A program made the translations under genes and the position numbers. From an uncultured Alphaproteobacteria bacterium (GTDB lineage Bacteria; Pseudomonadota; Alphaproteobacteria; Rickettsiales; CAIJLX01): a DNA stretch of 47,962 bases. Positions 6,629 through 43,880 of the stretch are shown here, one piece after another. The DNA lies in NCBI GenBank assembly GCA_903821695.1, contig CAIJLX010000103.1, positions 1 to 47,962 of the forward strand, read 5' to 3'. Positions within the stretch are counted from its first letter, which is position 1. Each line of letters begins with the position of its first letter. The notes under the pieces are model-generated. The model was not told the origin of the DNA. It made no database searches and was given only the letters and a program-made list of their open reading frames with translations.

Positions 6629-6630
6629 AA

Positions 6631-24463: not shown

Positions 24464-24755
24464 AAGACCCATCTACTTCGTCAGATAGCGCTATAATAAC
24501 AGAGCCATTTCCTACCAAAAAGCAAAAAATGAAGCACAAATGCAGAAAATTAGGCGTTTTGCTAATTCCGGTTTAGGTCATGTACACGCGAACCCAGCTT
24601 TTGCTTAGATGCGGGGCTTACCCGTACAGGGTTGCCAGTGGCCCTTGCGAGGGGGGATGCTGAGGGCTGTTTAGGAGCATTATAAGCGGTAATACTTCAG
24701 CTTTATGTTTGGGATACTTAAGCATTTCTTTACTTCTTTCCCTTATACTGGCCGC

Positions 24756-25037: not shown

Positions 25038-26623
25038 CGAACGAGATCACTTCTCACATCGAACAATTACGTGAGCAGATAAATGCATTGCTGGAGCAGG
25101 TTCCAGAGCGATTTGACACCATGAAGCGCTTAACGCTGCGCAGTTGCGCGATGGAAGCAAGAGACCAGAACAATGCCGGCAACCTCGAAGAAGCCATGAA
25201 AAGCCTGCGCCCGGCAGCGGAGTTGTTAAGCACGTACCGGAAACTTGAAAAGGACCCTAGCGAAGAGCTACGCCGCAATTACGAAGCCTGCGCGTTGTTG
25301 TTGCTGCAAATTGAGTTCGCTTCACAAAAATCACGCGGGAAGAATTTTCATGGCCTGGGCATTGGCCCGCACCCACAATATGTTTGCCCGTGGGTGGATG
25401 AAACACTGCACGCATACACCAACCTTTCAAAAGAATTTCATGCCCTGCCAGAAAAAACGCAAACGCATTTGCGCAGTTTTGATAGTGTGCTGACGGAAGT
25501 TTGCATGTCTCTGCTGGATCATTTGTTAGTAAGAAACCCAAACAAAGCCTTGATGCATAAAAACAACAAATTCAAGGAAGTTGCCAAGGCATTGGCCTAT
25601 GAACAAATGTTGCCGCCCAGTGTGGAAGAAAAACTGCAGGAAATGTATGCCGCGCTGGAAAAACATGCCGCGCCGGATGTGCTGCAAGCGGTGATAAGCG
25701 AAAACCGGACGGGCCAGCTAAAACGCGGCACTTATTTTTCCAACACTTTAGAAGCGAATATTTTGGCGCTAAAAATGTTCATTTTGCAGCTAGACATGCA
25801 GGATGAGACGATTGGCGAAAGCCTGCTGCTCCTTGAAGAATGGCGGCAAAACCGCGCCTGGAAAAATCCGAAACTACAGCAACATGCTGAAGCAATGAGC
25901 GGTGTGCTGAAAGAATTAAATACTATCATGGATGTGTTAAGCACTGACAGCTCGATCACCAAAAGCGGGCAGGCGGGAATTACGGAACTTTATGAATCCT
26001 GCTGGGGTGTGGTGATGATGATAACACAAGATGCCCAGGATCAATATTTCGGCAGAAACATAGGAACCTCCTGCGATTTTCCGGAACACCCGCTGGCAAA
26101 AGCGGTGCTGGAACTGGCCGATGAAATAGAAGCGCTCCCCCGTGAAATCAAAGATGTGATTTTTGATATGCAGGATAACCGGGATGTGGATAATGCGCTC
26201 AGAGTGAAAGATGAAACGGTGGATAAGCTCATCGCGTTGTTAAAGCCGGAAATGGAAGGCGCAGACGAATTAGCCCAGATTCTGTTCGATTTCGCCAATG
26301 AACAGCAAATTCCAGCCATTTCACGCCATATGAAACCACAGCTGCTGCCCGCCCGCTCGCTCATGGGCTTTGCCGCGCAATTGAGCGACGGCGCAGAAAG
26401 CCTAAGCGGCACAGACCGCATCGCCATGAATTTGGAAGCAAACGTACTCTGCCGCCTTGCGGCAAACCCAACGGTGGACAGCAAGGAATTGGCACAAAGC
26501 TTGAACAGCGTTGAAAGAATTCTGGCAAACTCTTCCATCGCCAACCTGGCAACCAGTCGCAATTTACAAGCCGGGATTGAAAACATGCGCCAGCAATTTC
26601 CAGACACGCAGAGGGCTAAATAA
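25034..26623 (+). CDS. Helical protein of unknown family, 529 aa (paralogue A)
   Basis: A 529-residue, almost entirely alpha-helical soluble protein with no signal peptide. It begins MTNEITSHIEQLREQINALL. I recognise no catalytic motif. It shares a clear middle segment with the following 554-residue protein (LPPSVEEKLQEMYAALEKHA versus LPPKVEKTLQEMWQTLETHS, then GQLKRGTYFSN versus GQIQRDAYFSS), so the two arose by tandem duplication. They form one operon with the 93-residue gene, closed by the terminator at 28291. A scaffold role is a guess from the helical content. Confidence 0.7.
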   Translation: MTNEITSHIEQLREQINALLEQVPERFDTMKRLTLRSCAMEARDQNNAGNLEEAMKSLRPAAELLSTYRKLEKDPSEELRRNYEACALLLLQIEFASQKSRGKNFHGLGIGPHPQYVCPWVDETLHAYTNLSKEFHALPEKTQTHLRSFDSVLTEVCMSLLDHLLVRNPNKALMHKNNKFKEVAKALAYEQMLPPSVEEKLQEMYAALEKHAAPDVLQAVISENRTGQLKRGTYFSNTLEANILALKMFILQLDMQDETIGESLLLLEEWRQNRAWKNPKLQQHAEAMSGVLKELNTIMDVLSTDSSITKSGQAGITELYESCWGVVMMITQDAQDQYFGRNIGTSCDFPEHPLAKAVLELADEIEALPREIKDVIFDMQDNRDVDNALRVKDETVDKLIALLKPEMEGADELAQILFDFANEQQIPAISRHMKPQLLPARSLMGFAAQLSDGAESLSGTDRIAMNLEANVLCRLAANPTVDSKELAQSLNSVERILANSSIANLATSRNLQAGIENMRQQFPDTQRAK

Positions 26624-28288
26624 ATGCCAGAGCGGGAACAGTTAGAACGATATGTGGGGCGTATTGACGTTGGCATTCGGCGGCTGCTTTCAACCGAGGC
26701 GGAAGAAGTTATTTCACTCCGCTTGCAAGAGGCGCTAAAAGAATGCACCACCAACGCCCGCGTTTATTTTAAAGACCCCGATTGCAGCGAACTGCCCGAT
26801 CTTAGCGTTGCGGTGCTGCATGCACTGCGCCCGGTGGCAGATTTATTGCAAGACCACGGTGTTGCACTTGAAACCCACAAAGATGGCCAAGCTCGCCAGG
26901 CCTATGAGGCGCTGGCCATGCTGCTAGTGCGCGTAGATTATAGCGCGCGGCATTTACCAGAACTCGCCCGCACCAGCTTTTATGCGCAAAACCTCAGCCA
27001 GTTGGAATATTCCGTAAACCCGTGGATAAACAAAATGCTCACTGCGGCCATGCAGCTTGTAAGGTGGGTGAACGAACATGAACCGTTGCAACCATTGGGG
27101 AAAAAACTTGCGGCGTGCATGAACAATATTCAACAGTTCATGCAGGATGAAAATGTGGAAACCGCCGCGGTCGAAAAAATCCGCCGCTTCCACCAGCTTT
27201 CGCAATGGCTGAGGTATGATAAACACCTGCCGCCCAAGGTGGAAAAAACACTGCAGGAAATGTGGCAAACCCTCGAAACCCATTCCCCGCCAGACATGTT
27301 GGTTGCGCTGCAGGCACAAAACCAGAATGGCCAAATTCAGCGCGATGCGTATTTTTCCTCGCGCCTGCCGGAAAAATTAAAAGAGTTTGAGCGGCTGTTG
27401 AAGCTGTGCAAACCCAAAGAAGGGGATTATTTTAAAATGGCATTTTCGCAGCTGCATACACTGCGCGATAGCCCGGAATTGCGGCATAAAAACAAACCCA
27501 TCGAAGAGGGCAAAACCACCCATGTGGAGTTGGTAAAAGAATTGATGGCGCTGCTTAACGAAATGATGAGCAAGCTAGATTTAAACCCTGAGATCGCCGA
27601 AAGCCGCGATGAAAAACGCCGCCGGAATTATGATGCATGTTGGTGCGTCGTGCAGCAGATAGGCGTGGATGCCATTGTGCAATATGCCATTGTGGATACG
27701 AAATTAGGCATGGATTTCCCCCAACACCCCTTCCGTTCGGAGATTGAAAAACAACTGGTGAGCATGACGGATGTGACAATATGCAATGCGATTTCAAAAT
27801 CGTTGGATGTGCTTTACCAGAACAACAACCCCGCCAAAGAATACGATACGAAAAAAGAGGCGATTAATCAGATCATGTTCATGATGGCGGCTTTGCGCGG
27901 GCCGGAGTTGGTGAGAGATTTCCCCTATGCCGCCGCGGAAGAGATGGACGCCCTCGCCGGGCTGTTATTCGCCCATGGCACGCCAGACCAGCAACAAGCC
28001 ATCACCAGTGCGCTGGATTATTCAATCGCTCTGCCGCGTAAAAAACAAACGCTGGGCGACCTTACGTTCACTCTCGCCGCGCAGCTGGATAAATTAGCGG
28101 AAACCCAGCAACCGGACCTGCAAAATATAATGAAGTTGCATGTTGAAATGCTAGAGCGCCTTGCCGAAAATCCGGAAAAAGACCCGCTGTTAGCCTGCCT
28201 CAATGCAATCACCGGCATTCCGGAAACGTTGGGTGATTTAAGGTTCTACAAAACCCTCACCGACCTGCGCACAAGCCTCACCAAATAA
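26624..28288 (+). CDS. Helical protein of unknown family, 554 aa (paralogue B)
   Basis: A 554-residue helical protein whose ATG directly follows the stop of paralogue A. It has the same architecture: N-terminal helices, VNPWINKMLTAAMQL where A has CPWVDETLHAYTNL, the shared LPPKVEKTLQEMW block, a YDACWCVVQQIGVDAIVQYA block matching YESCWGVVMMITQDAQDQYF in A, then DFPQHPF versus DFPEHPL. No known domain or membrane segment. Codon use looks more GC-rich than in the minus-strand operon that follows. Function is unknown. Confidence 0.7.
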   Translation: MPEREQLERYVGRIDVGIRRLLSTEAEEVISLRLQEALKECTTNARVYFKDPDCSELPDLSVAVLHALRPVADLLQDHGVALETHKDGQARQAYEALAMLLVRVDYSARHLPELARTSFYAQNLSQLEYSVNPWINKMLTAAMQLVRWVNEHEPLQPLGKKLAACMNNIQQFMQDENVETAAVEKIRRFHQLSQWLRYDKHLPPKVEKTLQEMWQTLETHSPPDMLVALQAQNQNGQIQRDAYFSSRLPEKLKEFERLLKLCKPKEGDYFKMAFSQLHTLRDSPELRHKNKPIEEGKTTHVELVKELMALLNEMMSKLDLNPEIAESRDEKRRRNYDACWCVVQQIGVDAIVQYAIVDTKLGMDFPQHPFRSEIEKQLVSMTDVTICNAISKSLDVLYQNNNPAKEYDTKKEAINQIMFMMAALRGPELVRDFPYAAAEEMDALAGLLFAHGTPDQQQAITSALDYSIALPRKKQTLGDLTFTLAAQLDKLAETQQPDLQNIMKLHVEMLERLAENPEKDPLLACLNAITGIPETLGDLRFYKTLTDLRTSLTK

Positions 28289-28625: not shown

Positions 28626-28916
28626 CTAGAGTTTAGTTTGGCTTGCCTCTATACTACCCATGTAGTCTGTAAAAAAACCAGATTTATTAACAATTAGCCT
28701 TGGCTTCTTAATTTTCTGTCCTGCTCTTGTCAGTGCCCCAATAGCCACGAGGCGGAACGGGAATACCGTTTCTTTCAAATAACTTGCTAAGCCACGATAG
28801 GATAAACCGTATTCCTTTGCAACATCAGTCATTGGCCTCTTCCATAGCAAAATTATATATATTTCTACCACGTATGGTTTATGTTTTGCTTCTTCCCGTT
28901 GCTGGACCTGGGTCAT
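28626..28916 (-). CDS. Small HTH protein, 96 aa (third gene of giant-protein operon)
   Basis: A 96-residue protein starting MTQVQQREEAKHKPYVVEIY. Its centre, MTDVAKEYGLSYRGLASYLKE, looks like a helix-turn-helix; the rest is basic. The start lies inside the last 38 bases of the helicase gene in another frame, so expression is tied to it. It could be the regulator or a DNA-binding subunit of the operon. A longer open frame of 170 residues overlaps the helicase much further and begins without a good signal, so I prefer the short form. Confidence 0.55.
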   Translation of the reverse strand: MTQVQQREEAKHKPYVVEIYIILLWKRPMTDVAKEYGLSYRGLASYLKETVFPFRLVAIGALTRAGQKIKKPRLIVNKSGFFTDYMGSIEASQTKL

Positions 28917-31704
28917 TTTGCTCGCCACGTATGCGTTCGAGGGCAGGAAGGCTGGACCAGTGGATGCAAAATTCAGATTCCTCACTATCCGCAGTACGAC
29001 GATTGGCACAGCGAAATTGCTCCGCCTGTGTTGTAGAAAATGTGATGGTTTTTTCTTGCCAGGGATCTCTCTTCTGTCCGGTTTGTGCTTTGAGGCGAAT
29101 CTGGTTCCATTGGTGATCAAGCTTGGCCATTTCTGCATTTGCCAGGGAAGTAATCCCTAAGGCATTCCGAGCATCTTGTATGTTCATCCATTCTTGTGTT
29201 TTCCAATGCGAAAAACGGTCTTTCCACCACATTGCCGCTTCTTGTTCAGTAGCTGCTTTATGGATTTCATATAGCGGCTTGAGAAGTTCTGGGGATACGG
29301 CAAAATCAACTCCGTCACCAGCTGGTTTATGGAAGAATCCCATATCAGAAACAGGGAGCGTATGTCCTTTGACTTCAATAGAAGTCGTACCAGGCGGGCG
29401 GTCAAGATAGGCATCGATAATATCGCCTATAAGCTGATCAAATTCAGGGTCTGCGCCGTTTCCTGCTACATATTTTCGTGCCAGAAATTCTGGCAAAAAT
29501 TCTGGTGGGCGTTGTTTCACTGCACCAAACAAGGCATTTTTACACAGACTAATGAGTCCTTTATCAATGCAAAAATACTCCTCTTCTCCAACTTTATAAT
29601 TACCTATTCGCCAAACAGGAAAAGGCTGCTGGCGAACAGAGATGTCCTCTATACTGACCATTTTATCTCTTGCCTCGCGGATTTGATACGCGGCTGCCAA
29701 GGGTTCATATAAACGACGCTGCAGGCGCTCCTTTTCTCGTTCAAAGCGCTCTGGCTTTATGTCTGGATTAATCTCACGGACCATTTCCTCGCAGGTGAGC
29801 ATCTCTTTAGTCTTTATTGGCGGGTTTCTGCCCATTTTTTGGCGGAAAATTTGGTATTCTTTTTCGTTCGTAATAATGGTTGGAACTTCGTCTACGCTGA
29901 CCCACGTGCGAGGGTCGCGGCTTTTGTTTTTATGACCTTCAGTTGGGCCAAATTCAAAATCTTTTGGAATGATGACGATGCCACCTGCTAACTCTCCAAA
30001 TATATATTGTTCGAGGCCGGCGATCAGGAAGGTAATGATGTTGGCAATTTTTGTCGGTTGCTCGAGATTTAAACGCATCACTCGCCCACCCTGTTGCAGA
30101 ATGCGGCTGGGGGAGCGCGAGGGGCAGAGTTGGAAACATAACTCTGCTTCACGGTCATCGAACCCTCGGACCATGAGTAAATTATTCGTCAGTGCCATGG
30201 TATCTTTATTACGGAAGCGCGTAATAACGGCGTTAATTTCCTCATCATCCATGCGGCCACTCACCGCTTCTGCATAACGTATCCGTTTTACACCATCTTC
30301 CTCTATGAAAAAATCTTCCCAGTCTTTCTTTTCTTCGGGATGGCTTTTCAAATAGGCTTCAATGCCAAGGTTAATTTTATCCGCCACCGTATTCGCATGG
30401 CCCACATTAGCACAATACCATACGGATTTCATGTCGATATAGGGTTTGCCAGTACCCGGATCGCAGCCATTTAAGAGCACTTTAACCGCGATATCATCGA
30501 TACCGGACAGTTGCGCCATTCTTTCAAGCTCGCGATCAGTATAATCCAGATCGCTATCGCTAATTTCCGGATTGAGTTTTTTTGTGCGTTCTTTGGCCGC
30601 GTTTATAATTGCAGCCACACCAGAGCGGTTTTTTTCTGGAACATCTACCTCCATGGCAATATTGCGCATGGGGCTAATCTCCTTGAAATTTACTGCTTCC
30701 TGGAACGGAGTTTCAAAGGCAGGTTTTAATCCGCCAAAAACATAATCTCCTGTTGTTTTGCCATTACGATACAGGTGCGTCGCGGTTAATCCCAATGTCA
30801 GGCACTCGGGTAAAATAAATTCGTGGATATAACGACTGGTTGCATCTCCGCGCGGACGGTCGTCGACTTCATCCAACAAAACAATGGTCGTCGCTTTGGG
30901 GTTTGCTTTCTTCTCATTGTTAAGGGCTTCAAGAAAATGTTGCTGCAGCTGAAAACGTTTTTCTTCATTTAGAAAATCGGTCGCCAATAAATCGGACAAT
31001 GTATCTATCGCAACATTCGGTAATTTCGCATCATGAATCATATCGAATAAACGATAGAGATTTTCTTGTTCTACAATGTCCTGCGATAATATGTTTTCTA
31101 TTTCGTTGCGAGCCCTCTGAGGCACTTTATTGTCCTCAAGTAAATCCAACACATTACGTCTTGTTATTGCACTACAACCAATGGTCGGTGGTTGATGATT
31201 GGCCAATATCCGCCCTGAATCATACGTGATGAGCACAATCGGTTTTTGCAAAGCAGCTTCTTTTTCTTCAAACTTTTGCGATGCACGGTATACACCGACA
31301 TATTCTGGTTTGATGGAAGGGAAATTGCCGCGCCGTCTGCCACCTTTTCCATCCGGAAGACCCAATAATTCTTCTTCCCATCGATCCAGCAATAAATTGG
31401 TGGGAACATGGATAATAGATCTGCGCCCTTGTGTTGGGTGACCAAGCACAAAAGTCTCACTCTCGGGAAGCGTATTCATTCCGATAATCATCACAACACC
31501 GCTCGTGGTCTTGCCAGTACCCGTAGGGCTTACTCCATAACCATAATTCACCCGCGTGCCCAGTATTGGATTGATTTCCCTAAAATACTTGCAGGTTTCA
31601 AGGCCCCTTTGTTTTTGTGGTGGCCGCGAAATATTTTCGTCACGCATCAGATGTGCGTAGTAACGACGTATTAAAGTGTTAATTTCTGTAATATCGCAGG
31701 ACAT
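28879..31704 (-). CDS. Superfamily 2 helicase/translocase, 941 aa
   Basis: A 941-residue protein with SF2 motifs: Walker A SPTGTGKTT at 59-67, motif Ia region SIIHVPTNLLLDRWEEEL, Walker B D278EVD (a valine variant of DEAD/DEAH), motif III GLTAT, and motif VI Q537QGGRVMR. About 400 residues beyond the helicase core have no domain I recognise. The ATG at 31704 overlaps the giant gene stop (TAATG) and has GGAG six bases upstream. It is the middle gene of giant protein-helicase-HTH, so it presumably acts with the giant protein on DNA or RNA. The family resembles DEAD-type helicases of large defence systems, but I cannot place it in a named one. Confidence 0.8.
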   Translation of the reverse strand: MSCDITEINTLIRRYYAHLMRDENISRPPQKQRGLETCKYFREINPILGTRVNYGYGVSPTGTGKTTSGVVMIIGMNTLPESETFVLGHPTQGRRSIIHVPTNLLLDRWEEELLGLPDGKGGRRRGNFPSIKPEYVGVYRASQKFEEKEAALQKPIVLITYDSGRILANHQPPTIGCSAITRRNVLDLLEDNKVPQRARNEIENILSQDIVEQENLYRLFDMIHDAKLPNVAIDTLSDLLATDFLNEEKRFQLQQHFLEALNNEKKANPKATTIVLLDEVDDRPRGDATSRYIHEFILPECLTLGLTATHLYRNGKTTGDYVFGGLKPAFETPFQEAVNFKEISPMRNIAMEVDVPEKNRSGVAAIINAAKERTKKLNPEISDSDLDYTDRELERMAQLSGIDDIAVKVLLNGCDPGTGKPYIDMKSVWYCANVGHANTVADKINLGIEAYLKSHPEEKKDWEDFFIEEDGVKRIRYAEAVSGRMDDEEINAVITRFRNKDTMALTNNLLMVRGFDDREAELCFQLCPSRSPSRILQQGGRVMRLNLEQPTKIANIITFLIAGLEQYIFGELAGGIVIIPKDFEFGPTEGHKNKSRDPRTWVSVDEVPTIITNEKEYQIFRQKMGRNPPIKTKEMLTCEEMVREINPDIKPERFEREKERLQRRLYEPLAAAYQIREARDKMVSIEDISVRQQPFPVWRIGNYKVGEEEYFCIDKGLISLCKNALFGAVKQRPPEFLPEFLARKYVAGNGADPEFDQLIGDIIDAYLDRPPGTTSIEVKGHTLPVSDMGFFHKPAGDGVDFAVSPELLKPLYEIHKAATEQEAAMWWKDRFSHWKTQEWMNIQDARNALGITSLANAEMAKLDHQWNQIRLKAQTGQKRDPWQEKTITFSTTQAEQFRCANRRTADSEESEFCIHWSSLPALERIRGEQNDPGPATGRSKT

Positions 31705-34700
31705 TACATTCTCCACCCTGGATCACCAGGATTACTTCGCATTCTATCAATAACTTCTCTCGATACCCTTTGCAGCTCTCTTAGATCTTTGAGATTAGAG
31801 TTGCCATTCGATGCGGAACCTTTTTTAACAGGGTCAGGAATGCCATGGTCGCTGCCAAAAATAACTTCAAGATTGCTTTTTGTTGCATGCGCCAACCAGT
31901 CTTTCGGTTTGTCAGCATTAAATGGTGGGTGTCTCTGATCTATAAAAAACTGAGGGCCCAACTCTTTTGCAGCGAGCACTTCCTGTCTTAGTTCTACATA
32001 GGGGGACGAACTAGTGAATGGAGTACTCGGCATAAGAGGAGAATAATGCAATCCGGCGAGCAAGCTTAAATGCTCTGCAACTGTCTCCTCGAATGAATGA
32101 ATCATATCACTATACTTTTGTGGTATGAGGCGCGTTTCGGTTACAGGCGCACCTGTAGTGTCAAGGTGCGGCTCCAGTTTCCCATCGCGTCTACCGCGCA
32201 TGACAGAAAATGTAACGGGAATAGGTCCATCTTTATCTTGTGGGTTTACTCTATCCATTCTGACACTCAAATCATGTTCAAAACGAGGTATCAAATCCCA
32301 GACAAATCGATCTAATCGCACATAATCCATGTCACCACGCACATAAGATTCCACTAAATCTGCCTTTTTTTCTGGAACGGCGAAGAATAATTCTAAATTC
32401 TCACCTTTGGTATTTTTCACGATGACAAACAGATCATCTGATTGCTTCTGCTGAATTTGTACTCGTATGGTAACGAGCCCATATTCTGGTTCTTCGCGCA
32501 CAATATTGAGACGATACGACATATTATCGGCCGGCAATTCATTTTTTATCATCTGACGATAAAGATGAATCTGCTCCTTGCTTAAAACCTCACTCACTTC
32601 TTTTTGCACGTTTCCAGCCAATTCCTTGGTCGATTCGCCACCCTCTCCCTTCTTCTCTACCAGCAGCCATCGCGCCTGTGGACGTTGCTCAAAATAATCC
32701 TGCAGCATGTAAACAAGACCCATCGCTTTATCGCTGCCGAAAATAACTTCTTGCACTCGCGAACGTGCCATTTCTGGATCTTCAATGCCAAGGTTCATGC
32801 CCCGGGTGCGAATAAGATATCCGGCAGAGGTATTATTCACCGGATCGTCATTAACATGCAAAGTGAACTTCAAATGATAGGTTTGGTTACTTCCCCCTTT
32901 GCTCATCGCCATAGCTCCAAGCATCATATTCTGAGGCTTGTTTTGAATCTCATCAAGGCTAGGAATTGGAACAGGCGTATGACGATATTGTCCGTAACCA
33001 ATTTCAGTTAGCGCCCATTTCCAATTCACCCAATCGTCTTCTTTGTCGACAACGACTACTCTTGGAAGCGCATCTTCTGCTGCTTTTAATGCCTTGTCCC
33101 TATCATCGCTTTTTGGAAGCTCTAAGAGAAGTTGATAGGCAGGATCAGTGGCCCCCAAATATGCCTTTTTGAGCCCATCGGTTATTAGCAACTCAATATG
33201 TTCCGGAGTTGCCCAATACCCATTGGGATTTTGAGGATCAACCACACGAATTTCCGCCACTATATTTTCCAGATGGCCTTGAATTTCCCGCTTAATAGGT
33301 ATTTTACGACGCTTCGCATTCGGTGGGTTATAATCATCGATAAATTTCTCTATGATCCCCATTCTTTCCTTAGCAATAAGTTCCGCCGCCGCAGCTTCTG
33401 CTTCAGTCCCATTGCCATTGATTTTCTTCACACCGAGCGGAAAAACAATCGTTACCTTGTCTCCATTTTTCGTATATTGCGCAGTCAGTTCTAGTTGATA
33501 TATTCCAGCATTGCTAACTTTAAGCGCAGTTTCGCGGTCGTCTTTATTGATAGCTCGGTTGGGAATAAAATCATCTTTGGTAATGCGCGGTTTGCCACTC
33601 GTTGTTTTTCCAAAAATAGGCAAAAAATCACCATTGGCTGCGATTTCACCATTAACAATAATCTGTAAATTTAATGCATCCAGCGATGTAGGAGTAACTC
33701 CCAGGCGCGCATAACCTTCAAGATATTGCATGCTATTCAGATCGAATATTTTTGAATAAGGCAATTTCCCCGCCTCATCGCTTTTAAAAAACAGGCGAAC
33801 ACGTGCATGGGTTTTATCAACCAGCAAATCACAGCGATATTGATTATATCCATTGTCTTTTGCTGTCATCGCCACATAAAGTGCGTCAACCGAAAGCTGC
33901 TCTGACATTGCTTCATAAGCCCGGGCACGGCGCGAATTCAGCTCTTCCGGCGATAATGCCGGGTCATTCTGTAAACGTGATTCGAAAATTCGTTTGGAAC
34001 CTTCTAATGCCTCTTCTGAATTCTCAGCGGGCGGCAATGCTTTCTTCTGCGGGGCTTTATTTGTCACCCCTTTGTTTCCATCAGCTTCTTCACCGGGAAG
34101 CTTTTCAGTAGATGTTGGAGTTGTAAGGGCAGTTTTTTGATCTTTTGCCTCAACTGCACCCTCATCTTCTTCTAATTTTTGATCCCTTTCCTCAGGTATA
34201 TTCTCATTTTTCTTTGGTTCTGGAGAAGAAGACTCAGAGTCCGCCTTCCCATTCTTTTCCAATGCCTTGCTAGTTTGCGCTTCTTCAGCGAGCAATAATT
34301 GTTCTGCAACGAAAGCACGTCTTGCTGCGATATCGGTCAGACCCAGCGCTTCTAAAATACGTTCTTTATCTCCGTATACACATGCAACTATGATTGGGCT
34401 TTCTGAAAGAACTTTCTTAAGCGGATGATCACTTGCTAGGATATTAGAAAGTTGAGTTTTCGCTGTTTTGCGCGCCTCATTAATGCCTTTATTTTTATTG
34501 CTCTCATCCCTTAGAGCAGCACTAATATTACCCGAAATTCCGGTTGAGGATGCTACAATTAATTTGCTCACCGGACCTTTAAACAGGGCGCCGCCCAACT
34601 GTTTATCTACCTCAATGTATGTATTCATATTTTGGCAAAGATTTTGCACTTCTGCTAGCAAAGCACGGTTGGCCTTTGGTGGAAATTCCAGGGTGTGCGT

Positions 34701-37700
34701 ATAAGGCGCCGGCTTGAGCGCTTCTTGAATGTTACGTTTAATGTCCCCATTGAGGGCAGCATATATTGTAGGGCAATCCCTATCTAAGGAATCAAGCAAA
34801 TCTCTGTGATTATCACGGAGTTTATTTTGTTTTAGTGGATCCGTATCCCTAATATTACCAATTTTTAGATTACTTGCCTCTTTCCATGCCCTTTGAGCGA
34901 ATTTTAGAGCTTCTAATGTAACGTTTTCTTTTAATACGTCACTCAGTGTCAATATTCTTTCTTGCTTTTTATCTGCAGCGACACCTTGGTAATCATGATA
35001 CATTATAGCCAATTTGACGACTGGATCTGCCAGTGCTGCCGTTCCCAGAGCTTGATGTAATGGAAGACCACAATCCAATTTACTACACAACCGATCAATT
35101 TCCTTGCGAAGTGCGGAATCAGCTTGCGCCGCAAGTTTTTGTTCTAATGAGAGGACATATGGTATCGGCAGATTAGGAATAGATGGTTGTGTGTGTTGAG
35201 AATCTTTTCCTGAACTTCCGTTGATAGGTATGGCAAGACTTGCATTTGCAATATGCTGCTCTGCAGCATATTGGTAAATATTCAGTATTTTTCTACATGC
35301 TGAATTATCGGCTTTTACTGTATCAATTTGATCGTATGCATGTGCAAGAACTGTTGCTTGGCAATGTTCTATTCCATGTTTCCACATTGCTCTTTCTATT
35401 TGTTGCGAAGAAAGGTGTGAGGGCAAGATGGCAAGAAATTCATTGAGTGCGGTTTCAAATAGCTTATTTTCAATATGAGGTTGAAGGGTTGCTACAAGAC
35501 CACTCGCAAATATGTGGCTTTTAAAGGCAGGATTATTGACGATAGTAACCGGAAGGGTAACATTTTTATTGCTTACATTTATCTCTACAAAGGGATGGCT
35601 GCCTGTAGTAAAACTCACCTCTTCATGAATAATGATGCGCTTTGCATAGTCAGGTACCTTTTCAAAAGCCTCCGCAAATCTTTGCTGCTGTTCTTCAGTT
35701 GCATTCTTTAATTCTGGCGATGGTTGTTTTTCTAACTCAGGCTGTTTGTCCGGTGTTTCTGCCTCACTCGCCGGATAAGGGGTCGGCGAGGTTGCGTCTT
35801 GTACATTTGCGCTAAGGCGCTCTTTTGCCGTTTCTTTGGATAACCGATCTGCTTCTACCTTTAAGGCTTCCATAAATTGATCGTAAAGCTGCAACCCATA
35901 AGGGTATATTTTTTCCGCGTTCTCTCTTCCGTTGGAAGAGATCTCTTCATGAATCCTCAAAAAATTATTAATATTTGTCAGCCGTGAGTTGCCAACGCCA
36001 ACCGCACGTATTACTTCTTTTTTTACTAGCTCCCATTTTAAATCTGGGGGCATTTTATTATGCATGGCGCAAAAGAGTGCATAAAACTTTGCCGGCACCT
36101 GGTCACGAGCACGATACTCTTCTCGATTACTATACCAAGTATCAATCTTCACTACTTTAGTCTCAGGATCATATGGAGATGTAGACTTATCTCGATTGTG
36201 CATCATTACGAAAGTAATGCCGCATGCTTGTATAAACTCTTTAACCCAAGGCTCCCATTTTTCGTATCCTGCCAGGAAAGTATCAATATCTTTCTGAGTT
36301 ACTTTTTTTGCGTATTTAGGATCTATGGTAATGTCAGGTGGCAATAGATTGGTATTAGGCGTTTCTGCCTCTACTTTATTTACATTCTGACTTCCCAACT
36401 GCTGCTTTTCTGCAAACTCTTTCGCCTTAAGCATGAATTCTTCATATAATGCCAAGGCTATAGGAGTAAGTCTTCTTGAAGTATTCAGATTGCCTGGTTT
36501 TTTCAAAGTATCATGAACATTTGCTAATATCTGTGATGGAGAAAGCTGCCGGGGATTGTTTTTTTGAAAGCCAGTAATTTTTTTGATTTCTAATACTGTC
36601 CCCCGCCATTTAGGGTTTTTTGTTACATCCTCCTCCATTACACAGAACATTGCATCAAACATCGCATTTGTTGGAGGGATATTATCCAGGCTTGATTGGA
36701 TATGAGTAGCAGAAATATGTACTTGTTTTAGAGCAATATCGTGTGATGTAAGTGGTTTGCCAGCTTGGTCATTTCTGATAACAAAGGTAACGTCAGCTAC
36801 CATTTTCTTAATCCAATCTTCCCAATTCTGGCAGCCCTGTACAAAAGAATGTATGTGCTCTGGTGTAACTTTTTCTCCATATTGCGGGTGGGGAATAACT
36901 TTAGGAATGAAAATAGATAGGGGGGCAGGTTTCTGTGCTTCTTCCCGCGTTGCAATAGGCGAGTCTGTCATTACTCCTTGCTGCGCTGCCCTATATGCAG
37001 CTTCTAAATAGATATTATAGACATCGGTACGCACGTCTAAAAGATCCGAAAATCTTGACTGATCGGCTGCATGCAAATCAATATAGGTGCCTGCTAAAAT
37101 TTCCGCGATCTTTCTTCCGCCTTTAAAATTTAACCTAACGACTTCCGGCTTTGCTAGGACCTCAAGCAGAGGTTTTTGGGCAGCAACTGGCTCTGTGTTT
37201 AGAATTGTTCTCTGTAAATGTTGGACCATTGCCTTATTTACTAATTCATCTTCAATGGCTGGTTTTAACGCGATCGCCAATCCATAACCAAAAATATATC
37301 CTGGCAATACGATTTCTGGCTGCTCTGTAAAGGCACTCGCTCTTATGGCAACAACATTATTTTGGGTGATGATCGTATTACCTTCGTCCAAATTCGGGTT
37401 CACCCTGAACTGAACGTTGCCTTTTTCGATCACTCTTTTAACTTCTGCAGTCAGTGTGCCCACCGCTGCATTAAATTGTTGCTTCTGCTCCGCTGTCGCG
37501 TTTGCTATTTTTATTGTTTCTGGCGCTATTATCCTTGGGATTGCAGCAATAGGAGTTTCTGGCAATTTAGAAGAGGCTTCGCGTGAAACCTCTGTTGGGA
37601 AAATAGGCGGCAAAGCATGATAATGTTCGTCTTTTTTGATTTGTTGCCTGAGATACTCCATACCAGCCTCATAAAGATCAGAGAGGCTTTCGGTTCGAGG

Positions 37701-40043
37701 CGGTATTGATAAAACAGGTGGATAGTGTGCGTCTATTTGTTGCTGAATATAAGCCATCCCAGCTTCATAAAAAGCAATGGCATTCTTAAAGTCATTTTTA
37801 ATAAATCGTTGCTGTTCCGGGTTTGTATAATTGTTCAGCGCAAAATGAATGTTTGCCAATGCTGTTATTGCCTCAAAGCGCGATAATTCTACTTGAGCAA
37901 TATGGGATGAGGCATTACCGAATATTAATTTATCCGTATGCGCCTGATTATAGTTTGTCACTTCCTTGTTTTTTTTCTTAAGAGCATATTCTGCTTTAGA
38001 ATATCCTGGCCCCAAATTTTTTAAAATTGGATCATCTATATTTAAATCACGCAATCTCTGCATAAGCATTAACGTTCTCGTCATCACCGTAGATATCAGA
38101 GTATCATCAATATCCTTGCCTAATAACAGTACAGGAACAAACATCAGAGTTTCATTGGCAGCAAATTCATAACTTGATAATACAATGGGCGCTCTTTCCC
38201 GTTGCATGACTCGGTCAATGCTTTCCGGCAATAAAGATGGGTGATCTCTAAAGTATGCCACTAATTTAGTGATTTCTTCTTCGCCGGGCTGTGGCCCATA
38301 TTTTTCATAAACTGGCGCAATGCTTTCTTTACACAGCCTTATTAACTCTTCGAGCGATGCATCGTCTTTTTTACAGTCTTTTAAACTCGCGATGGTTTGT
38401 AATTTAACTCGCTCGTTAGGGGTGAGTGGTGTGCCTTCCCTCTGCTCAGGCGGACCATCATTAACATAATACACTCTAGCAAACACATAGTCATACCCCC
38501 CCGCGTCTATGAGATGCAGAGTCCTATCAATTTTTGCACGGACCTTTTCTTTATCTTCAAGTTCGGAAGGCAGCAGAGAAAATAAACTGCTATTATATTG
38601 TACCCCCTCATTTTGTAATGCTTGCGCGACCGAGGAGACACCCATATCAAGATACACCACCGCGCAATAAGGCGTTACTATGTCACAGAGAGGAACTCTA
38701 AGCTGAGCAAATGAAGTGCTCTTAGTTCCCAGCATCACCCCAGATTGCGCAAGATCTACACTGGCATCAGCAACGGAGGGCTTTGTATTCTCCTTCGGTT
38801 GCCTATGCATTTCAGCAACTTGTTGGCTTACAAATTCCTGATACTGATTATAGGCATCAATGAGGTTTTCAATGGAAGGCTGTTGTAGCTTAAGTCTTTC
38901 TAAATCCGGGCTTGCAAGTATCGCTACGACCTGATCCATCAGTAGGGCACAATTATTTTCCATGCCGGGAAGGTTATCGAGGTGCATTTGGAAGCGCTCT
39001 AAAGAGCCACCCTTCGCATGGTATTCTATAGCCGCATCTTTAGCGCTTTTCCAATCGATGGAAGGCCCGGTTCCCAGAGCCGTAAGATAGGCAAAGAATT
39101 TAATGAACTGATGCCTATAAAGCAAAAATTCGGGCTCCTTTACCTCATTGATACGCTGACCAATGATCAGCTGGTTTCCTTTTGACGAAACTACGTCAGA
39201 AGAAGTGCTATCAAATACAATGCTCAAATTTTTCGATCCCAGTAGCTGCCTTTCTTTTTTGTCCCATTTTTTGATAACGTCATTGCAAAAGGTAACTACG
39301 GTTTCCGGCGGTATTGGCCCCACGATTTGAAAGCGAATCCCATTCATTCCCTCTTTCAATATGCGGTTTTTTTCTGCTTCGAGGGCATTCTTTGTCCTTG
39401 TTTGCACTTTCTTCATTAGCGCCATTTCTTCTTCCACAAAACGTGTGTACGTTTGGTAGAGTTTGACATTGTACGGAAGTGTAGTGGATTGTATTGAACC
39501 TTCTGCTGTCATCCGATGCAAAACTTCCTCAGCAGCTGTCAAAACAACCGCCTTTGATAGAGCGTTGGGTAATATCGATAATCCGGAATTACTAATAGGG
39601 ATTTGAATGGCCACACCATCCACGTTTACGGTGACGGACATTGGCTGACTTTTGGCAATATTCCAGCTCTCTTCCGACACAGGGCCATTCCCAAACACGG
39701 TAATTAAAACTGTAAACTTCAAACGAGATAAGGAATCGCTTTCATTTTCATAAGTTTTTATGGCGCTTTCTGCGATAAACAATAACTTCCTTCCTTGCAA
39801 CGCTTCTGGTGCTGGCGGCGTTTCTGTTGATCCATCTGGGACAATAATAATAGCGAGTCCATGATACGCAACCAATCGCCTTTCTTCTTCCTTCATTGCC
39901 TTGTTTAAAAGGCTAACAAAACGTGGCCCGCAATCGTTCGCTACACCAGGCGCCACTGCAAATAGTATCTGATCCCTATCAACCTGCTGGTTTGTTGCCT
40001 CAGGATTTCCTCCGTTGGCTTTCTGTTTTCTGGATCTGGACAT
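31704..40043 (-). CDS. Giant multidomain protein, 2779 aa, with repeated degenerate zincin-like modules
   Basis: A soluble 2779-residue protein. Repeats recur near residues 85-125, 290-330, 620-645, 897-930, 1105-1140, 1297-1330 and 1485-1525. Each has a beta strand (GRKLLFIAES, NNVVAIRAS, TKVVKIDTW), then a loop and a hydrophobic helix (FFAYLTALG, YIFGYGLAIAL, FYALFCAM). The pattern resembles anthrax lethal factor-like zincins, whose second part is HExxH; that motif is missing in every copy, so proteolysis is unlikely. A helical duplication (about 1645-1690 and 1796-1845) and an acidic, low-complexity linker (about 1920-2015) precede a ~760-residue alpha/beta C-terminus I do not recognise. 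I use the ATG at 40043 (AGGGAAATTAGAG upstream); an ATG at 40076 is possible. It leads the operon with the helicase. Confidence 0.75.
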   Translation of the reverse strand: MSRSRKQKANGGNPEATNQQVDRDQILFAVAPGVANDCGPRFVSLLNKAMKEEERRLVAYHGLAIIIVPDGSTETPPAPEALQGRKLLFIAESAIKTYENESDSLSRLKFTVLITVFGNGPVSEESWNIAKSQPMSVTVNVDGVAIQIPISNSGLSILPNALSKAVVLTAAEEVLHRMTAEGSIQSTTLPYNVKLYQTYTRFVEEEMALMKKVQTRTKNALEAEKNRILKEGMNGIRFQIVGPIPPETVVTFCNDVIKKWDKKERQLLGSKNLSIVFDSTSSDVVSSKGNQLIIGQRINEVKEPEFLLYRHQFIKFFAYLTALGTGPSIDWKSAKDAAIEYHAKGGSLERFQMHLDNLPGMENNCALLMDQVVAILASPDLERLKLQQPSIENLIDAYNQYQEFVSQQVAEMHRQPKENTKPSVADASVDLAQSGVMLGTKSTSFAQLRVPLCDIVTPYCAVVYLDMGVSSVAQALQNEGVQYNSSLFSLLPSELEDKEKVRAKIDRTLHLIDAGGYDYVFARVYYVNDGPPEQREGTPLTPNERVKLQTIASLKDCKKDDASLEELIRLCKESIAPVYEKYGPQPGEEEITKLVAYFRDHPSLLPESIDRVMQRERAPIVLSSYEFAANETLMFVPVLLLGKDIDDTLISTVMTRTLMLMQRLRDLNIDDPILKNLGPGYSKAEYALKKKNKEVTNYNQAHTDKLIFGNASSHIAQVELSRFEAITALANIHFALNNYTNPEQQRFIKNDFKNAIAFYEAGMAYIQQQIDAHYPPVLSIPPRTESLSDLYEAGMEYLRQQIKKDEHYHALPPIFPTEVSREASSKLPETPIAAIPRIIAPETIKIANATAEQKQQFNAAVGTLTAEVKRVIEKGNVQFRVNPNLDEGNTIITQNNVVAIRASAFTEQPEIVLPGYIFGYGLAIALKPAIEDELVNKAMVQHLQRTILNTEPVAAQKPLLEVLAKPEVVRLNFKGGRKIAEILAGTYIDLHAADQSRFSDLLDVRTDVYNIYLEAAYRAAQQGVMTDSPIATREEAQKPAPLSIFIPKVIPHPQYGEKVTPEHIHSFVQGCQNWEDWIKKMVADVTFVIRNDQAGKPLTSHDIALKQVHISATHIQSSLDNIPPTNAMFDAMFCVMEEDVTKNPKWRGTVLEIKKITGFQKNNPRQLSPSQILANVHDTLKKPGNLNTSRRLTPIALALYEEFMLKAKEFAEKQQLGSQNVNKVEAETPNTNLLPPDITIDPKYAKKVTQKDIDTFLAGYEKWEPWVKEFIQACGITFVMMHNRDKSTSPYDPETKVVKIDTWYSNREEYRARDQVPAKFYALFCAMHNKMPPDLKWELVKKEVIRAVGVGNSRLTNINNFLRIHEEISSNGRENAEKIYPYGLQLYDQFMEALKVEADRLSKETAKERLSANVQDATSPTPYPASEAETPDKQPELEKQPSPELKNATEEQQQRFAEAFEKVPDYAKRIIIHEEVSFTTGSHPFVEINVSNKNVTLPVTIVNNPAFKSHIFASGLVATLQPHIENKLFETALNEFLAILPSHLSSQQIERAMWKHGIEHCQATVLAHAYDQIDTVKADNSACRKILNIYQYAAEQHIANASLAIPINGSSGKDSQHTQPSIPNLPIPYVLSLEQKLAAQADSALRKEIDRLCSKLDCGLPLHQALGTAALADPVVKLAIMYHDYQGVAADKKQERILTLSDVLKENVTLEALKFAQRAWKEASNLKIGNIRDTDPLKQNKLRDNHRDLLDSLDRDCPTIYAALNGDIKRNIQEALKPAPYTHTLEFPPKANRALLAEVQNLCQNMNTYIEVDKQLGGALFKGPVSKLIVASSTGISGNISAALRDESNKNKGINEARKTAKTQLSNILASDHPLKKVLSESPIIVACVYGDKERILEALGLTDIAARRAFVAEQLLLAEEAQTSKALEKNGKADSESSSPEPKKNENIPEERDQKLEEDEGAVEAKDQKTALTTPTSTEKLPGEEADGNKGVTNKAPQKKALPPAENSEEALEGSKRIFESRLQNDPALSPEELNSRRARAYEAMSEQLSVDALYVAMTAKDNGYNQYRCDLLVDKTHARVRLFFKSDEAGKLPYSKIFDLNSMQYLEGYARLGVTPTSLDALNLQIIVNGEIAANGDFLPIFGKTTSGKPRITKDDFIPNRAINKDDRETALKVSNAGIYQLELTAQYTKNGDKVTIVFPLGVKKINGNGTEAEAAAAELIAKERMGIIEKFIDDYNPPNAKRRKIPIKREIQGHLENIVAEIRVVDPQNPNGYWATPEHIELLITDGLKKAYLGATDPAYQLLLELPKSDDRDKALKAAEDALPRVVVVDKEDDWVNWKWALTEIGYGQYRHTPVPIPSLDEIQNKPQNMMLGAMAMSKGGSNQTYHLKFTLHVNDDPVNNTSAGYLIRTRGMNLGIEDPEMARSRVQEVIFGSDKAMGLVYMLQDYFEQRPQARWLLVEKKGEGGESTKELAGNVQKEVSEVLSKEQIHLYRQMIKNELPADNMSYRLNIVREEPEYGLVTIRVQIQQKQSDDLFVIVKNTKGENLELFFAVPEKKADLVESYVRGDMDYVRLDRFVWDLIPRFEHDLSVRMDRVNPQDKDGPIPVTFSVMRGRRDGKLEPHLDTTGAPVTETRLIPQKYSDMIHSFEETVAEHLSLLAGLHYSPLMPSTPFTSSSPYVELRQEVLAAKELGPQFFIDQRHPPFNADKPKDWLAHATKSNLEVIFGSDHGIPDPVKKGSASNGNSNLKDLRELQRVSREVIDRMRSNPGDPGWRM

Positions 40044-40161
40044 CTCTAATTTCCCTATTGTTGGGGATCTTAGCATCGCAAGGTTAACAAAACGTTAAAT
40101 AGGCCCTCTCGAATGCAAAAAAATAGAAATATCAGTAACTTATTCATGAAAGGTAAAAATA

Positions 40162-40494: not shown

Positions 40495-41418
40495 TCATAA
40501 AGCTTTGTCGCGGCCACCTAGTGAAGTCATCTCCGTTATTTTCTGAAATTCTGTTAGATATTCAGGATGATGTTGCGCGATATATTTGACAATACGAGCA
40601 TTGTTGAGCAGCGTAGAAATGTATGTTCTGGCGACTGTAAGCGTTAATACATTCGGCCCAAAACTATCTTCGATCAGCTGATATTGTCCCTGTAGGCTTC
40701 CCATTTCCGCTTCCATCCGGGACATCTGTTCCGTGTTGAGGCCTCTTACCTTCTTTGGTTTTAATGGATCAACCAATTGAGCATGAGGTGTAGCAGCCAA
40801 AAGCGCCTGCATGAAATTCAGGGAATAAATATTGGCATCTCGCATCAAAGTGGCAGCTTCAATTTGCCTTAGAGGCTTCATGCGTCTCATAATTTTAAAC
40901 ACATGGGTTGCAACCATTTTATTTTTCAGCAAGTCGGCGGCTTCGGAACATATTCCGTTTAATAAATCTCGTTTAAATATAATATTTTTTACGTTCAGAT
41001 TGAGTGCGCGCGCCAGCTTCTCTTCTGACACGCCTCGCTTTACTGCCTGCACAACCATACGGTGTTCCTGAATCGGCGAAAGGCGGCTGATATGCTTATT
41101 ATAGGTAAAGGATTCATCATCAGTAGAGACAAGGCAAATGATTTCTTGTTCTCCAATTTCTCTCAAAGCCTCAAGACGCAGATGCCCATCCAGGAGCATA
41201 TATTGGGTCTGTCCTCGACTGGGCGATGCTACGATCGGTGGTTCAATGATTCCAATTTCACGAATGGAAGCAACAATCTGGTGGAACTTTTCACTTTCAC
41301 GAATAGCCGGTGTGACTATTTTTAGTGGGAAAATATCTTTCAGTTGCAGCGTAACAGTGTCTGATGCAAAGCCGATTTTGATATTACTCACTAGTTTTGC
41401 CTGTTGTGCCCGGAGCAT
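40495..41418 (-). CDS. RepB-type plasmid partition protein homologue
   Basis: A 307-residue ParB-superfamily protein. The ParB/Srx N-terminal domain includes ESEKFHQIVASIREIGIIEPPIV and YMLLDGHLRLEALREIG, then an HTH part (LARALNLNVKNIIFKRDLL). The C-terminus (MSRMEAEMGSLQGQYQLI, then FGPNVLTLTVARTYISTLL) is of the RepB type found in alphaproteobacterial recombinase modules. The start is three bases after the ParB stop with AAGGAG upstream. No ParA ATPase or replication initiator is nearby, so it likely serves the recombinase module rather than classic partition. Confidence 0.82.
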   Translation of the reverse strand: MLRAQQAKLVSNIKIGFASDTVTLQLKDIFPLKIVTPAIRESEKFHQIVASIREIGIIEPPIVASPSRGQTQYMLLDGHLRLEALREIGEQEIICLVSTDDESFTYNKHISRLSPIQEHRMVVQAVKRGVSEEKLARALNLNVKNIIFKRDLLNGICSEAADLLKNKMVATHVFKIMRRMKPLRQIEAATLMRDANIYSLNFMQALLAATPHAQLVDPLKPKKVRGLNTEQMSRMEAEMGSLQGQYQLIEDSFGPNVLTLTVARTYISTLLNNARIVKYIAQHHPEYLTEFQKITEMTSLGGRDKAL

Positions 41419-41421
41419 GGA

Positions 41422-42315
41422 TCAAAACTCCTTAGCTGATATCAAAGCTGCCAACTGTTTTGGCATACTATCCAAACTCTCTGCGCGAAGCAGAGTGGTA
41501 AAGTGTTCCTCCTGCAACAGACATCGCATGGCCTCCTTCAGAAACACTAGACGGTTGTTTACAACGTCAGCTTTTCGTTCCAACAATTGTTTCCGGCTTA
41601 CTTCTCGCCTATATGTTTTGATAATATCTTGACCGTAATCGCCGATAGTGTGGGAGCGGCTTTTCTTTTTGGAGCTCCGCAATGTTTTTCCCCAATTTGT
41701 ACGATTCTCTAACAGCTGCTTGGCAGCCATGAATTTATTGCCACTGAGTTGCCCTGTTTCATAGGCGCCTTGTAATGCTACTTGCTCATTTTTGGGTGAT
41801 TGCACGATATTGATTGCAAGCGTAATAGGAATACTACCGGACTCGACCGCTGTTACTAGCCGCTCTTCACCCTGTTCGAGTAGTAGAATCAGATTATTGA
41901 TATACTCCGTTGAATAACCAATTTTAGCAGCGATGGTTTTGGCATCATATCCCTGCTTGCGCAGTATCTCCACACCTTGCAGTAAATCGATAGGTCTGTG
42001 TCTACGGCGAGCAATGTTTTCAACCAAGCCCATAATCAGCGCTTGTTCTTCACTGGCATCAATTACCATCGCTGGAATCATTGTCTGGCCCCAAGCCATA
42101 AATGCTTCGAGCCGACCCTGTCCACATACCAGATCGTAGTCTTTACCGTCCGTTTTGGAATGAGAGGGCATGACCGTAATTGGACGCTTAAGACCAACTT
42201 TTGCAATATTCTGCACTACAGCATCAAATAATTTGGGATTACGTGTGCGAGGATTAAGTACATTGATTCGGTCTACAGGAATCACCTGGATAGACATATG
42301 CCTCTGCCTACTCAT
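41422..42315 (-). CDS. ParB-like nuclease/partition domain protein
   Basis: A 297-residue protein with the ParB N-terminal domain (VIPVDRINVLNPRTRNPKLF, LVCGQGRLEAFMAWG, GLVENIARRRHRPIDLL) and the central HTH (KTIAAKIGYSTEYINNLILLLEQG). The C-terminal dimer part is helical. Start overlaps the recombinase stop (ATGA) with GAGG upstream, so translation is coupled. Together with the RepB-like gene it follows the serine recombinase in one operon, an arrangement seen repeatedly in alphaproteobacteria. The pair probably binds specific repeats near the recombination site; TTCCCTGTTA is a candidate. Confidence 0.85.
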   Translation of the reverse strand: MSRQRHMSIQVIPVDRINVLNPRTRNPKLFDAVVQNIAKVGLKRPITVMPSHSKTDGKDYDLVCGQGRLEAFMAWGQTMIPAMVIDASEEQALIMGLVENIARRRHRPIDLLQGVEILRKQGYDAKTIAAKIGYSTEYINNLILLLEQGEERLVTAVESGSIPITLAINIVQSPKNEQVALQGAYETGQLSGNKFMAAKQLLENRTNWGKTLRSSKKKSRSHTIGDYGQDIIKTYRREVSRKQLLERKADVVNNRLVFLKEAMRCLLQEEHFTTLLRAESLDSMPKQLAALISAKEF

Positions 42316-43880
42316 GAGACGTCCTCTATGCGCACTCGCTCCGTCAGGAGAAAAAATACCTCCAGATCATCAAAACGATACGCATCCAATGCGAGGCCAT
42401 TATTCTCAGCCAGACGCATCTTGGGGTTTTCAATATCAAGCGCTGGTAGCAGATAATAGTCGAATGCCTTCTCATTTGCCGCATCCATACGGATAACAAT
42501 CGTAATATCCGGAAGTAATCCGCTATCGAGATGTATTTTCCAGCGATAATCGCCGCCTTTGGTATGGTGGCAGCGACAGATTACTATCGAAGCTCGTAGC
42601 TCCTCATTAATAATGATCAATTCAGAAGTTTTCTCCTGGCGTACATATCCTCCCAGATCTTGAATCTTACGGATAGTGTCATCGATGACGCTGCCGTGCA
42701 ATTTACGCAAGCGGCGATTGATTTCTATAAAACTATAGTCATGATCCGGCGTGAAACCAATCAGCTCATAGGCCCGGATTAAGCTGCCAAACCGATGCTG
42801 ATAGGCGCTGCTAGAGGGCATATTCTCAGACTCATTAATAACAACTCCGGACAACCAACCATGTTGTTCATGTAGTTTGCGTAGTTTTTCTAGCATTTCC
42901 TCATCGCTAAATTTTCGACCGCGTTCGCGGATGATTCCTTGTGCCGTGAAAAAATAACGAGGCTCAACAATGGCCTCAAACACCCCATCTTTGCGCACCC
43001 ACATATCCGGTACGTTAACCACACGCCGTTTTTTGAGCTTAAAAGACGTTCGATTGAATATATTATTGCCAATATACTTCTCGTTGGTCAGTACTTCATG
43101 CACAGTACTACGAGTCCAGGGGCGATCGAGATCTGTTAATACGCCCCGCTGATTGAGAATAGCTGCGATCTGGCTTTCCTGCATTCCTTCTTCGGTGAAT
43201 GCACGGTACATCCATTGTACGTTTTCGACTTCATCAGGTGGTCCCGGCACCAGAATAACCCGATCCGTCTGCAAACTCTTGTGCTCTCCGCGTTTCAGTG
43301 CTGCCTTCTGTTGCCCGTGTTCATCAATAAGCACGCGTCGCAATCCATAACCTGCTGGTCCACCCTGACGATAGCCAAGTTCAATCAAGCGACATTGCCC
43401 GGCAAATACTTTTGTGGAGAGTTCCCGGCTGTATTCACCCGCCATCGCACGCTTGACGCCCTTAACGATGGTAGATACGGGACTACCATCATTCTCAAAT
43501 TGCTCAGCAACATATTGGACATCAATACCCGCCCGGCGGCAGATATATTCATAATAAGCACTCTCGTCTGCATCTTGAAAGCGGCCCCAGCGCGTGACAT
43601 CCAGCACCAGAATCATCGTAAAAGCAGCAACACCCGACTGTACATCATCAATCAGCTTCTTAAGCGCGTCCCGACCATCCATGCTAAGGCCGCTTTTTCC
43701 GGAATCAGTATAGGTCTCTATGATTTCAATATGGTGCCGGTCCGCATACTCACGAATGGCATCGCCCTGATTCTCCGTAGAGTACTTTTGATGGTCCGTA
43801 GACATGCGCACATACATGGCAGCCCGTCGGATAGGGGAAGGAACATCGCGTGTATTGTTACTATTTTTGTCCACAGTCAT
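42312..43880 (-). CDS. Serine recombinase of the recombinase-ParB-RepB module
   Basis: A 522-residue recombinase. The resolvase domain has RRAAMYVRMSTDHQ with the catalytic serine at about 27, followed by YTDSGKSGL, LVLDVTRWGR and EYSRELSTKVF. The recombinase domain follows (EKYIGNNIFNRTSFKLKKR). The C-terminal ~150 residues are specific to this module. It differs clearly from the other serine recombinase at 2011-3663. It heads the operon with the two ParB-type genes and is divergent from an HTH gene. Only a weak ribosome binding signal precedes the ATG at 43880. Confidence 0.88.
   Translation of the reverse strand: MTVDKNSNNTRDVPSPIRRAAMYVRMSTDHQKYSTENQGDAIREYADRHHIEIIETYTDSGKSGLSMDGRDALKKLIDDVQSGVAAFTMILVLDVTRWGRFQDADESAYYEYICRRAGIDVQYVAEQFENDGSPVSTIVKGVKRAMAGEYSRELSTKVFAGQCRLIELGYRQGGPAGYGLRRVLIDEHGQQKAALKRGEHKSLQTDRVILVPGPPDEVENVQWMYRAFTEEGMQESQIAAILNQRGVLTDLDRPWTRSTVHEVLTNEKYIGNNIFNRTSFKLKKRRVVNVPDMWVRKDGVFEAIVEPRYFFTAQGIIRERGRKFSDEEMLEKLRKLHEQHGWLSGVVINESENMPSSSAYQHRFGSLIRAYELIGFTPDHDYSFIEINRRLRKLHGSVIDDTIRKIQDLGGYVRQEKTSELIIINEELRASIVICRCHHTKGGDYRWKIHLDSGLLPDITIVIRMDAANEKAFDYYLLPALDIENPKMRLAENNGLALDAYRFDDLEVFFLLTERVRIEDVS

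Follow-up and report, generated by a model that had tools for sequence, protein, structure and literature searches.

The 47,962-nucleotide contig CAIJLX010000103.1 of an uncultured Alphaproteobacteria bacterium (GCA_903821695.1; Rickettsiales, CAIJLX01) was analysed here in full and is referred to as the window (contig C103 of a 2.1 Mb genome in 111 contigs). It carries a gene for a giant protein joined directly to a gene for a superfamily 2 (SF2) helicase. This gene pair is genuine and recurring, and its two members are associated across genomes. As far as our library and literature searches show, the pair is undescribed, and the two large genes look like an undescribed DNA-handling, possibly anti-invader, machine.

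The giant gene (31704..40076, minus strand; matched by profile A4) encodes 2790 residues from an in-frame ATG at 40076, or 2779 residues from the ATG at 40043, and comprises putative pseudo-zincin modules, a middle part that appears helical by eye and a conserved C-terminal region. Its stop codon is joined by a TAATG to the start, at 31704, of the helicase gene (28879..31704, minus strand), which encodes 941 residues including a C-terminal extension. A small open reading frame (ORF) of 96 residues follows (28626..28916, minus strand). The original prediction, made from the sequence alone, had described three overlapping minus-strand genes, and the ORF coordinates bear this out. It had also counted the smallest as a helix-turn-helix protein belonging to the system. 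For the 96-residue ORF, Pfam and PADLOC gave nothing at E <= 1, its best PHROGs match has E = 0.32, and its best match among 11,068 stop-to-stop frames of loci outside the window has E = 0.65. In two further genomes with an adjacent pair, G057 and G006, no same-strand ORF of at least 80 residues directly follows the helicase. With no relative detected for the small ORF, we dropped the three-gene system in favour of a two-gene set, to which this ORF probably does not belong; its helix-turn-helix label was not borne out.

Giant and helicase genes are adjacent in the window, G057 and G006, which represent three families of one order, and both are present on different contigs in G015 and G052. The gene directly before the helicase encodes 2049 residues in G057, and in G006 genes of 850 and then 533 residues occupy this place; all are without a Pfam family. 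The giants were surveyed with profiles over 343 genomes of the order, the window's included. A profile of the C-terminal region of three giants (A3) matched five genomes at E <= 0.01, adding G036 and G052. A profile of five giants (A4) matched nine at E <= 0.1, of which eight were accepted (G000, the window's own, together with G006, G057, G036, G052, G015, G341 and G067), G340 (E = 0.0036) being excluded from the count. Five of the nine accepted giant places were seeds of A4, and the other four are held-out matches (G036:C10, E = 3e-93; G015, 4e-39; G341, 1.5e-35; G067, 8e-16). A further place in G036, G036:C38 (E = 0.085), lies outside these nine and is linked to the family by another search (E = 2.5e-4 and 4e-5); it, the G341 giant and some neighbouring genes are truncated by contig ends.

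A profile of five helicases (A10) matched 28 of the 343 genomes at E <= 1e-10, and the match runs well into the C-terminal extension in only six of them (G000, G006, G057, G052, G063 and G015), of which G015 was held out and the other five were seeds. Twenty of the remaining matches cover the SF2 core only, a contig end truncates the G331 gene, and G017 (E = 4e-66, model positions 18-448 of 775) was left out. Giants are thus found in eight genomes, extended helicases in six and both in five (hypergeometric P = 9e-9); P becomes 3e-7 without the window genome and 1e-3 at the family level, the one level at which phylogeny enters. In the 225 genomes with a completeness of at least 90%, the two coincide perfectly, with four giants and four helicases (three and three without the window). 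The genome with a helicase and no giant, G063, is 53% complete. The original prediction had considered that giant and helicase might not co-occur, which is not what these genomes reveal. As judged from the profiles, the presence of the pair within the order is patchy and its sequence identity is low.

The SF2 motifs and the DEVD Walker B claimed for the helicase are confirmed. The protein contains PTGTGKT (residue 60), DEVD (278), TAT (307) and QQGGRVMR (537), which we take to be Walker A, Walker B, motif III and motif VI, so that the whole set used for SF2 assignment is present. Library searches returned Helicase_C in Pfam (E = 3e-5) and phrog_16 in PHROGs (E = 3e-20). Among PDB sequences the core resembles RAD25/XPB (E = 4e-7), the type I R subunit (E = 3e-6) and RadD (E = 3e-5), and there is a weak resemblance to RadD in NCBIfam. 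Used as a single query, the helicase matched six of 88 same-order genomes, its own included, with most of its length covered in G057 and G006. These two are its full-length profile relatives, and the three proteins align mutually at E = 1e-41 or better. A class-wide search with helicase profile A1 matched 26 of 385 genomes at E <= 0.001, with a full-length match in the window only, and the same profile run over genome contigs returned a single locus, on contig RGZB01000014.1 of G006 ('Proteobacteria bacterium isolate WBA_2_307'). Phage records held no match for the window helicase, the G057 helicase gave only weak core matches, on six plasmids, and viral contigs scanned with profile A1 and with the G052 helicase yielded no relative.

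Two further helicases of the order deserve mention. The G052 helicase (L014 7445-9886, minus strand) ends in a tail of four 86-residue repeats that are 49–71% identical, possibly a modular binding array. A tyrosine integrase recognised in Pfam lies 1.4 kb from this gene, which is not linked to the G052 giant, suggesting a mobile setting for the helicase. In G036 (L071 144-8458), a 1461-residue SF2-like helicase stands beside an opposite-strand gene for a 1292-residue protein, possibly a different arrangement with a large partner.

Similarity between the giants is faint (G006 and G057, E = 2e-5; G057 and the window, E = 1e-3) compared with that between the helicases, and the giants therefore evolve far faster. 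As a single query in the 88 same-order genomes, the window giant matched only itself. The prediction that it belongs to no recognised family agrees with the searches, as Pfam, PADLOC, PHROGs and NCBIfam gave none at E <= 0.01. Up to E = 1, Pfam offers Fervidolysin_SD2 alone, which is sub-threshold (E = 0.067), PADLOC offers nothing in this range, and in PHROGs there is only a 31-residue match, to a family of unknown function (E = 0.012). Eight further giants or giant halves also lack a Pfam family. Genes of such giants would thus be annotated as hypothetical.

Self-comparison of the window giant revealed internal repeats, with residues 1039-1195 repeated at 1229-1383 (E = 5e-13) and residues 847-954 at 1446-1548 (E = 6e-5). 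Four modules were delimited, all on the minus strand: A1 (residues 853-1039; 36960..37520) and A2 (1453-1621; 35214..35720), which repeat each other, and the likewise paired B1 (1061-1231; 36384..36896) and B2 (1250-1419; 35820..36329). Three further possible modules (residues 28-225, 235-426 and 577-785; 37722..39995, minus strand) were aligned by pattern, by eye. A leave-one-out profile search recovered four of the seven at E-values from 1e-10 to 0.015 (B1, 1.2e-10; A2, 4e-4; B2, 0.012; A1, 0.015 in a one-sequence search space) and lent no support to the three aligned by eye. Held-out giants were matched weakly by a profile of the seven window modules (G015, E = 0.13; G057, E = 0.14). Among the other giants, G036c has three N-terminal repeats that are 34–36% identical.

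Module B2 was modelled with AlphaFold2 from an alignment of the seven window modules and one L046 module, an input weakened by the three modules without leave-one-out support. The model reached a pLDDT (predicted local distance difference test) of 84.8 and a pTM (predicted template modelling score) of 0.80; confidence was similar in four of the five models, and the remaining one stood at 54.5. Over the whole module it is predicted to adopt the zincin fold of the lethal-factor/Pro-Pro endopeptidase (PPEP) group. Foldseek against the PDB placed PPEP-3 first (probability 0.97, template modelling score (TM) 0.55, E = 0.23), and a viral library returned, as its first match, a phage protein that carries the name 'Lethal factor' (probability 0.99, TM 0.42, E = 0.02). 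In VIA-align, the best Z score of 8.7 was obtained with 2n6j over 144 of 170 residues, and 157 residues were aligned to 4pkq. The first 38 rows (Z 6.0-8.7; many entries, few proteins) are all PPEP, lethal factor, edema factor or Certhrax, at identities of 7–14%; the next is a zincin (5.8), and unrelated rows begin at Z 5.7. Since background alone can yield a best Z of 7-8, the weight of the zincin assignment rests on the uniformity of the list and the coverage. The fold was not recovered by sequence alone, as a 12-module profile found no zincin in the PDB (best E = 0.8, to an unrelated protein).

The zincin motif HExxH is absent from all 12 giants or giant halves scanned, two of which are cut by contig ends. 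The modules are therefore probably pseudo-peptidases, four in the window giant by sequence and three more by eye only. Three other proteins (G340, G036_776 and G036_1292) also lack the motif, giving none in 15. Dead zincin domains of the lethal-factor type are known mainly as binding domains of toxins. Outside the giants, a stand-alone protein of 437 residues in G331 (L144 6240-7553, plus strand) was matched by the seven-module profile (E = 1.1e-4 over 40 positions) and by the 12-module profile (E = 0.0046). It has no Pfam family, looks zincin-like by eye and contains one HExxH string, and may be an active single-module relative.

The region that defines the family is C-terminal (residues 2030-2790; 31707..33989, minus strand) and was aligned across ten family proteins. 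By look it consists of four to five strand-strand-strand-helix units, which were not shown to be mutually homologous. A lead from the pattern, namely DNA-binding repeats resembling AP2 domains or integrase arms, found no support: comparison of hidden Markov models gave a probability of at most 8%, with one of 12 column-shuffled controls reaching 4.3%, and a second comparison gave 1–2%. Against PDB sequences, the C-terminal profiles A12 and A3 had no match and A13 had chance-level ribosomal matches only. A GyrB match obtained with A4 (E = 0.007) was judged to be chance, because it covered one unit and one protein family.

DISARM, Druantia and BREX are large helicase-containing loci, and the gene set was predicted to match none of them. 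No model of these or of other PADLOC helicase systems matched a window protein at E <= 1, save for PbeA on a 55-residue stretch of the helicase (E = 0.007). Likewise, no described system in the libraries searched corresponds to the gene set, and the titles and abstracts returned by our literature searches contained no description of the pair, the giant or the module array. ATLF and PPEP zincins share the predicted fold of B2, but the giant differs in its missing HExxH, its tandem modules and its helicase partner. A further likeness is to Hachiman, which, in the passages of PMC12278908 that present it, pairs the nuclease HamA (DUF1837) with the Ski2-like helicase HamB. Both sets have two genes, one of them for an SF2 helicase, and the partner in Hachiman was formerly of unknown function (PMC12278908). 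In the giant, however, no nuclease domain was recognised, and here the core of the helicase is like those of RAD25/XPB, type I R and RadD. Pfam and PADLOC gave no match for a DUF1837 nuclease in the giant, although a strongly diverged nuclease could escape them.

A joint role in DNA surveillance is the best supported reading of these data. Besides the adjacency, the co-occurrence, the zincin fold and the missing HExxH, the patchy presence and low identity speak for it, as do the mobile settings of the window pair and of the G052 helicase. With rather less than even confidence, we propose that giant and helicase constitute a lineage-restricted two-component DNA-surveillance machine whose most likely role, which we infer, is defence against phages or mobile elements. 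The ATP-driven motor would be the helicase, whose RecA core and C-terminal extension would bind or scan DNA. As a non-enzymatic, fast-evolving scaffold, the giant would present zincin modules without HExxH as protein-binding surfaces and would dock to DNA or to the helicase through its conserved C-terminal region. Partners that belong to an invader or are linked to damage would be recognised by the modules, which vary and duplicate, and it is this form of recognition that makes defence the most likely role. Complex formation, DNA targeting and the function of the modules are what we infer. Repeat expansion in both partners, in the G036c giant and the G052 helicase, would fit a recognition role under conflict. 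A bolder and more doubtful version is a pseudoprotease-based sensor of invading DNA, a new immune-like class in one order of Alphaproteobacteria: a dedicated SF2 helicase would drive a scaffold on which arrays of dead zincins, gained and duplicated under conflict, would serve as exchangeable units of recognition. If true, this pairing of a helicase with tandem dead-zincin arrays would put the fold to a new use and represent a DNA-handling partnership of a new kind.

Several observations weigh against joint DNA surveillance. Pfam, PADLOC and NCBIfam revealed no effector domain, such as a nuclease or toxin, in either protein, and the only match of the window proteins in the defence library PADLOC is the PbeA stretch mentioned above. 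The C-terminal region has no reliable model (pLDDT 33) and no detected relative, and DNA binding by the giant is only conjectured. None of the 180 Foldseek matches of the B2 model in the PDB reaches E <= 0.001. Apart from the count by family, the co-occurrence P takes no account of phylogeny; giants lacking such a helicase exist in G036, G341 and G067 (66–89% complete), and six of the nine accepted giant places do not adjoin a helicase.

The most serious alternative, itself rather unlikely, is lineage-specific genome maintenance, in which the pair would repair or organise the host's own DNA with no invader involved. The resemblance of the helicase core to RAD25/XPB, the type I R subunit and RadD favours this idea, as do chromosomal places among housekeeping-like genes in G052, G015 and G341 (mostly by eye). 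Several unlinked giants lie amid such genes, again by eye: mur/fts and flagellar genes; rnd and a dihydroorotase-like gene; and an isocitrate-dehydrogenase-like gene with glnA further on, the one setting checked in Pfam. The concern in the original prediction that giants might occur alone or in housekeeping settings was therefore partly justified, with three of nine places adjoining a helicase. Its operon in a mobile island does not hold as a universal rule, given the helicase-less giants of G036, G341 and G067, but a recombinase module does lie near the window pair. Core DNA repair is not usually so patchily distributed as a giant found in eight and a helicase found in six of 343 genomes, and the fast evolution and duplicated modules also argue against maintenance.

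It is improbable that the giant is a mobile-element protein akin in spirit to polyvalent proteins, delivered with incoming DNA and shielding it from the host with zincin-like and SF2 parts. Polyvalent proteins of phages and conjugative elements are, in the passages of PMC5512222 devoted to them, very large and modular and mix zincin-like with SF2 parts. Their zincin is described there as a (self-)protease (PMC5512222), whereas HExxH is missing from the giants scanned, a separate gene encodes the helicase and most family copies lie outside any evident mobile element (loci other than the window read by eye). The window pair does lie 0.4 kb from a module in which two RepB/ParB-like proteins accompany a serine recombinase (40495..43880, minus strand; Pfam RepB, ParB_N, Resolvase and Recombinase), the G052 helicase is near an integrase, and ArdC is third by E-value in the Foldseek list of B2 (probability 0.20). 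However, plasmid records held no match for the window or G052 giant, and one pattern scan of viral contigs with the G052 giant found no relative. The RepB-RepB-recombinase module was not found beside the pair elsewhere; a phmmer comparison of four window mobility genes with 218 neighbour ORFs gave no match but, having missed the G052 tyrosine integrase, lacks the sensitivity to show that such genes are absent.

Still less probable is a large secreted or host-directed giant that uses its dead zincin modules to bind a receptor or transporter, with the helicase as a bystander. The B2 model also matches the N-terminal domains of lethal factor (1j7n residues 45-268, Z 7.9) and edema factor (1xfu 68-290, Z 7.2), which bind receptor or transporter, but the giant gene overlaps the helicase gene and co-occurs with it even when unlinked. 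We give equally little credence to an association by ascertainment between two unrelated genes both carried by the larger genomes of the order: the numbers are small, the related G015 and G052 (family f16) were counted separately and five of the six helicase genomes were profile seeds, but the pair is adjacent in three different families, the profile that found the G052 giant had not been built from it, and both profiles picked up G015 although it was a seed in neither.

Among neighbouring genes, a shared antiporter beside the giants of G057 and G036 was rejected as synteny; the antiporters share only 29% identity, and a second copy (31%) lies elsewhere in G057. G068 carries, with other genes adjoining, the nearest relative (67%) of the antiporter that flanks the G057 pair, consistent with the pair being accessory in G057. 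In the window, plus-strand ORFs of 110, 546 and 554 residues lie at 24705-28288; they appear helical by eye, the two long ones are paralogous (E = 3e-31), with ends that the short one resembles. Eight other giant- or helicase-bearing genomes gave no match to a profile of the long pair. Terminase-like, DUF-like and ParB-methyltransferase-like genes next to one another (21014-24246, minus strand; by eye) are likely a prophage remnant. Finally, a type ISP restriction-modification protein of 1646 residues, encoded 17 kb from the pair, and a neighbouring GHKL-type ATPase protein (4763-11571, minus strand) probably form a restriction locus with an accessory ATPase.

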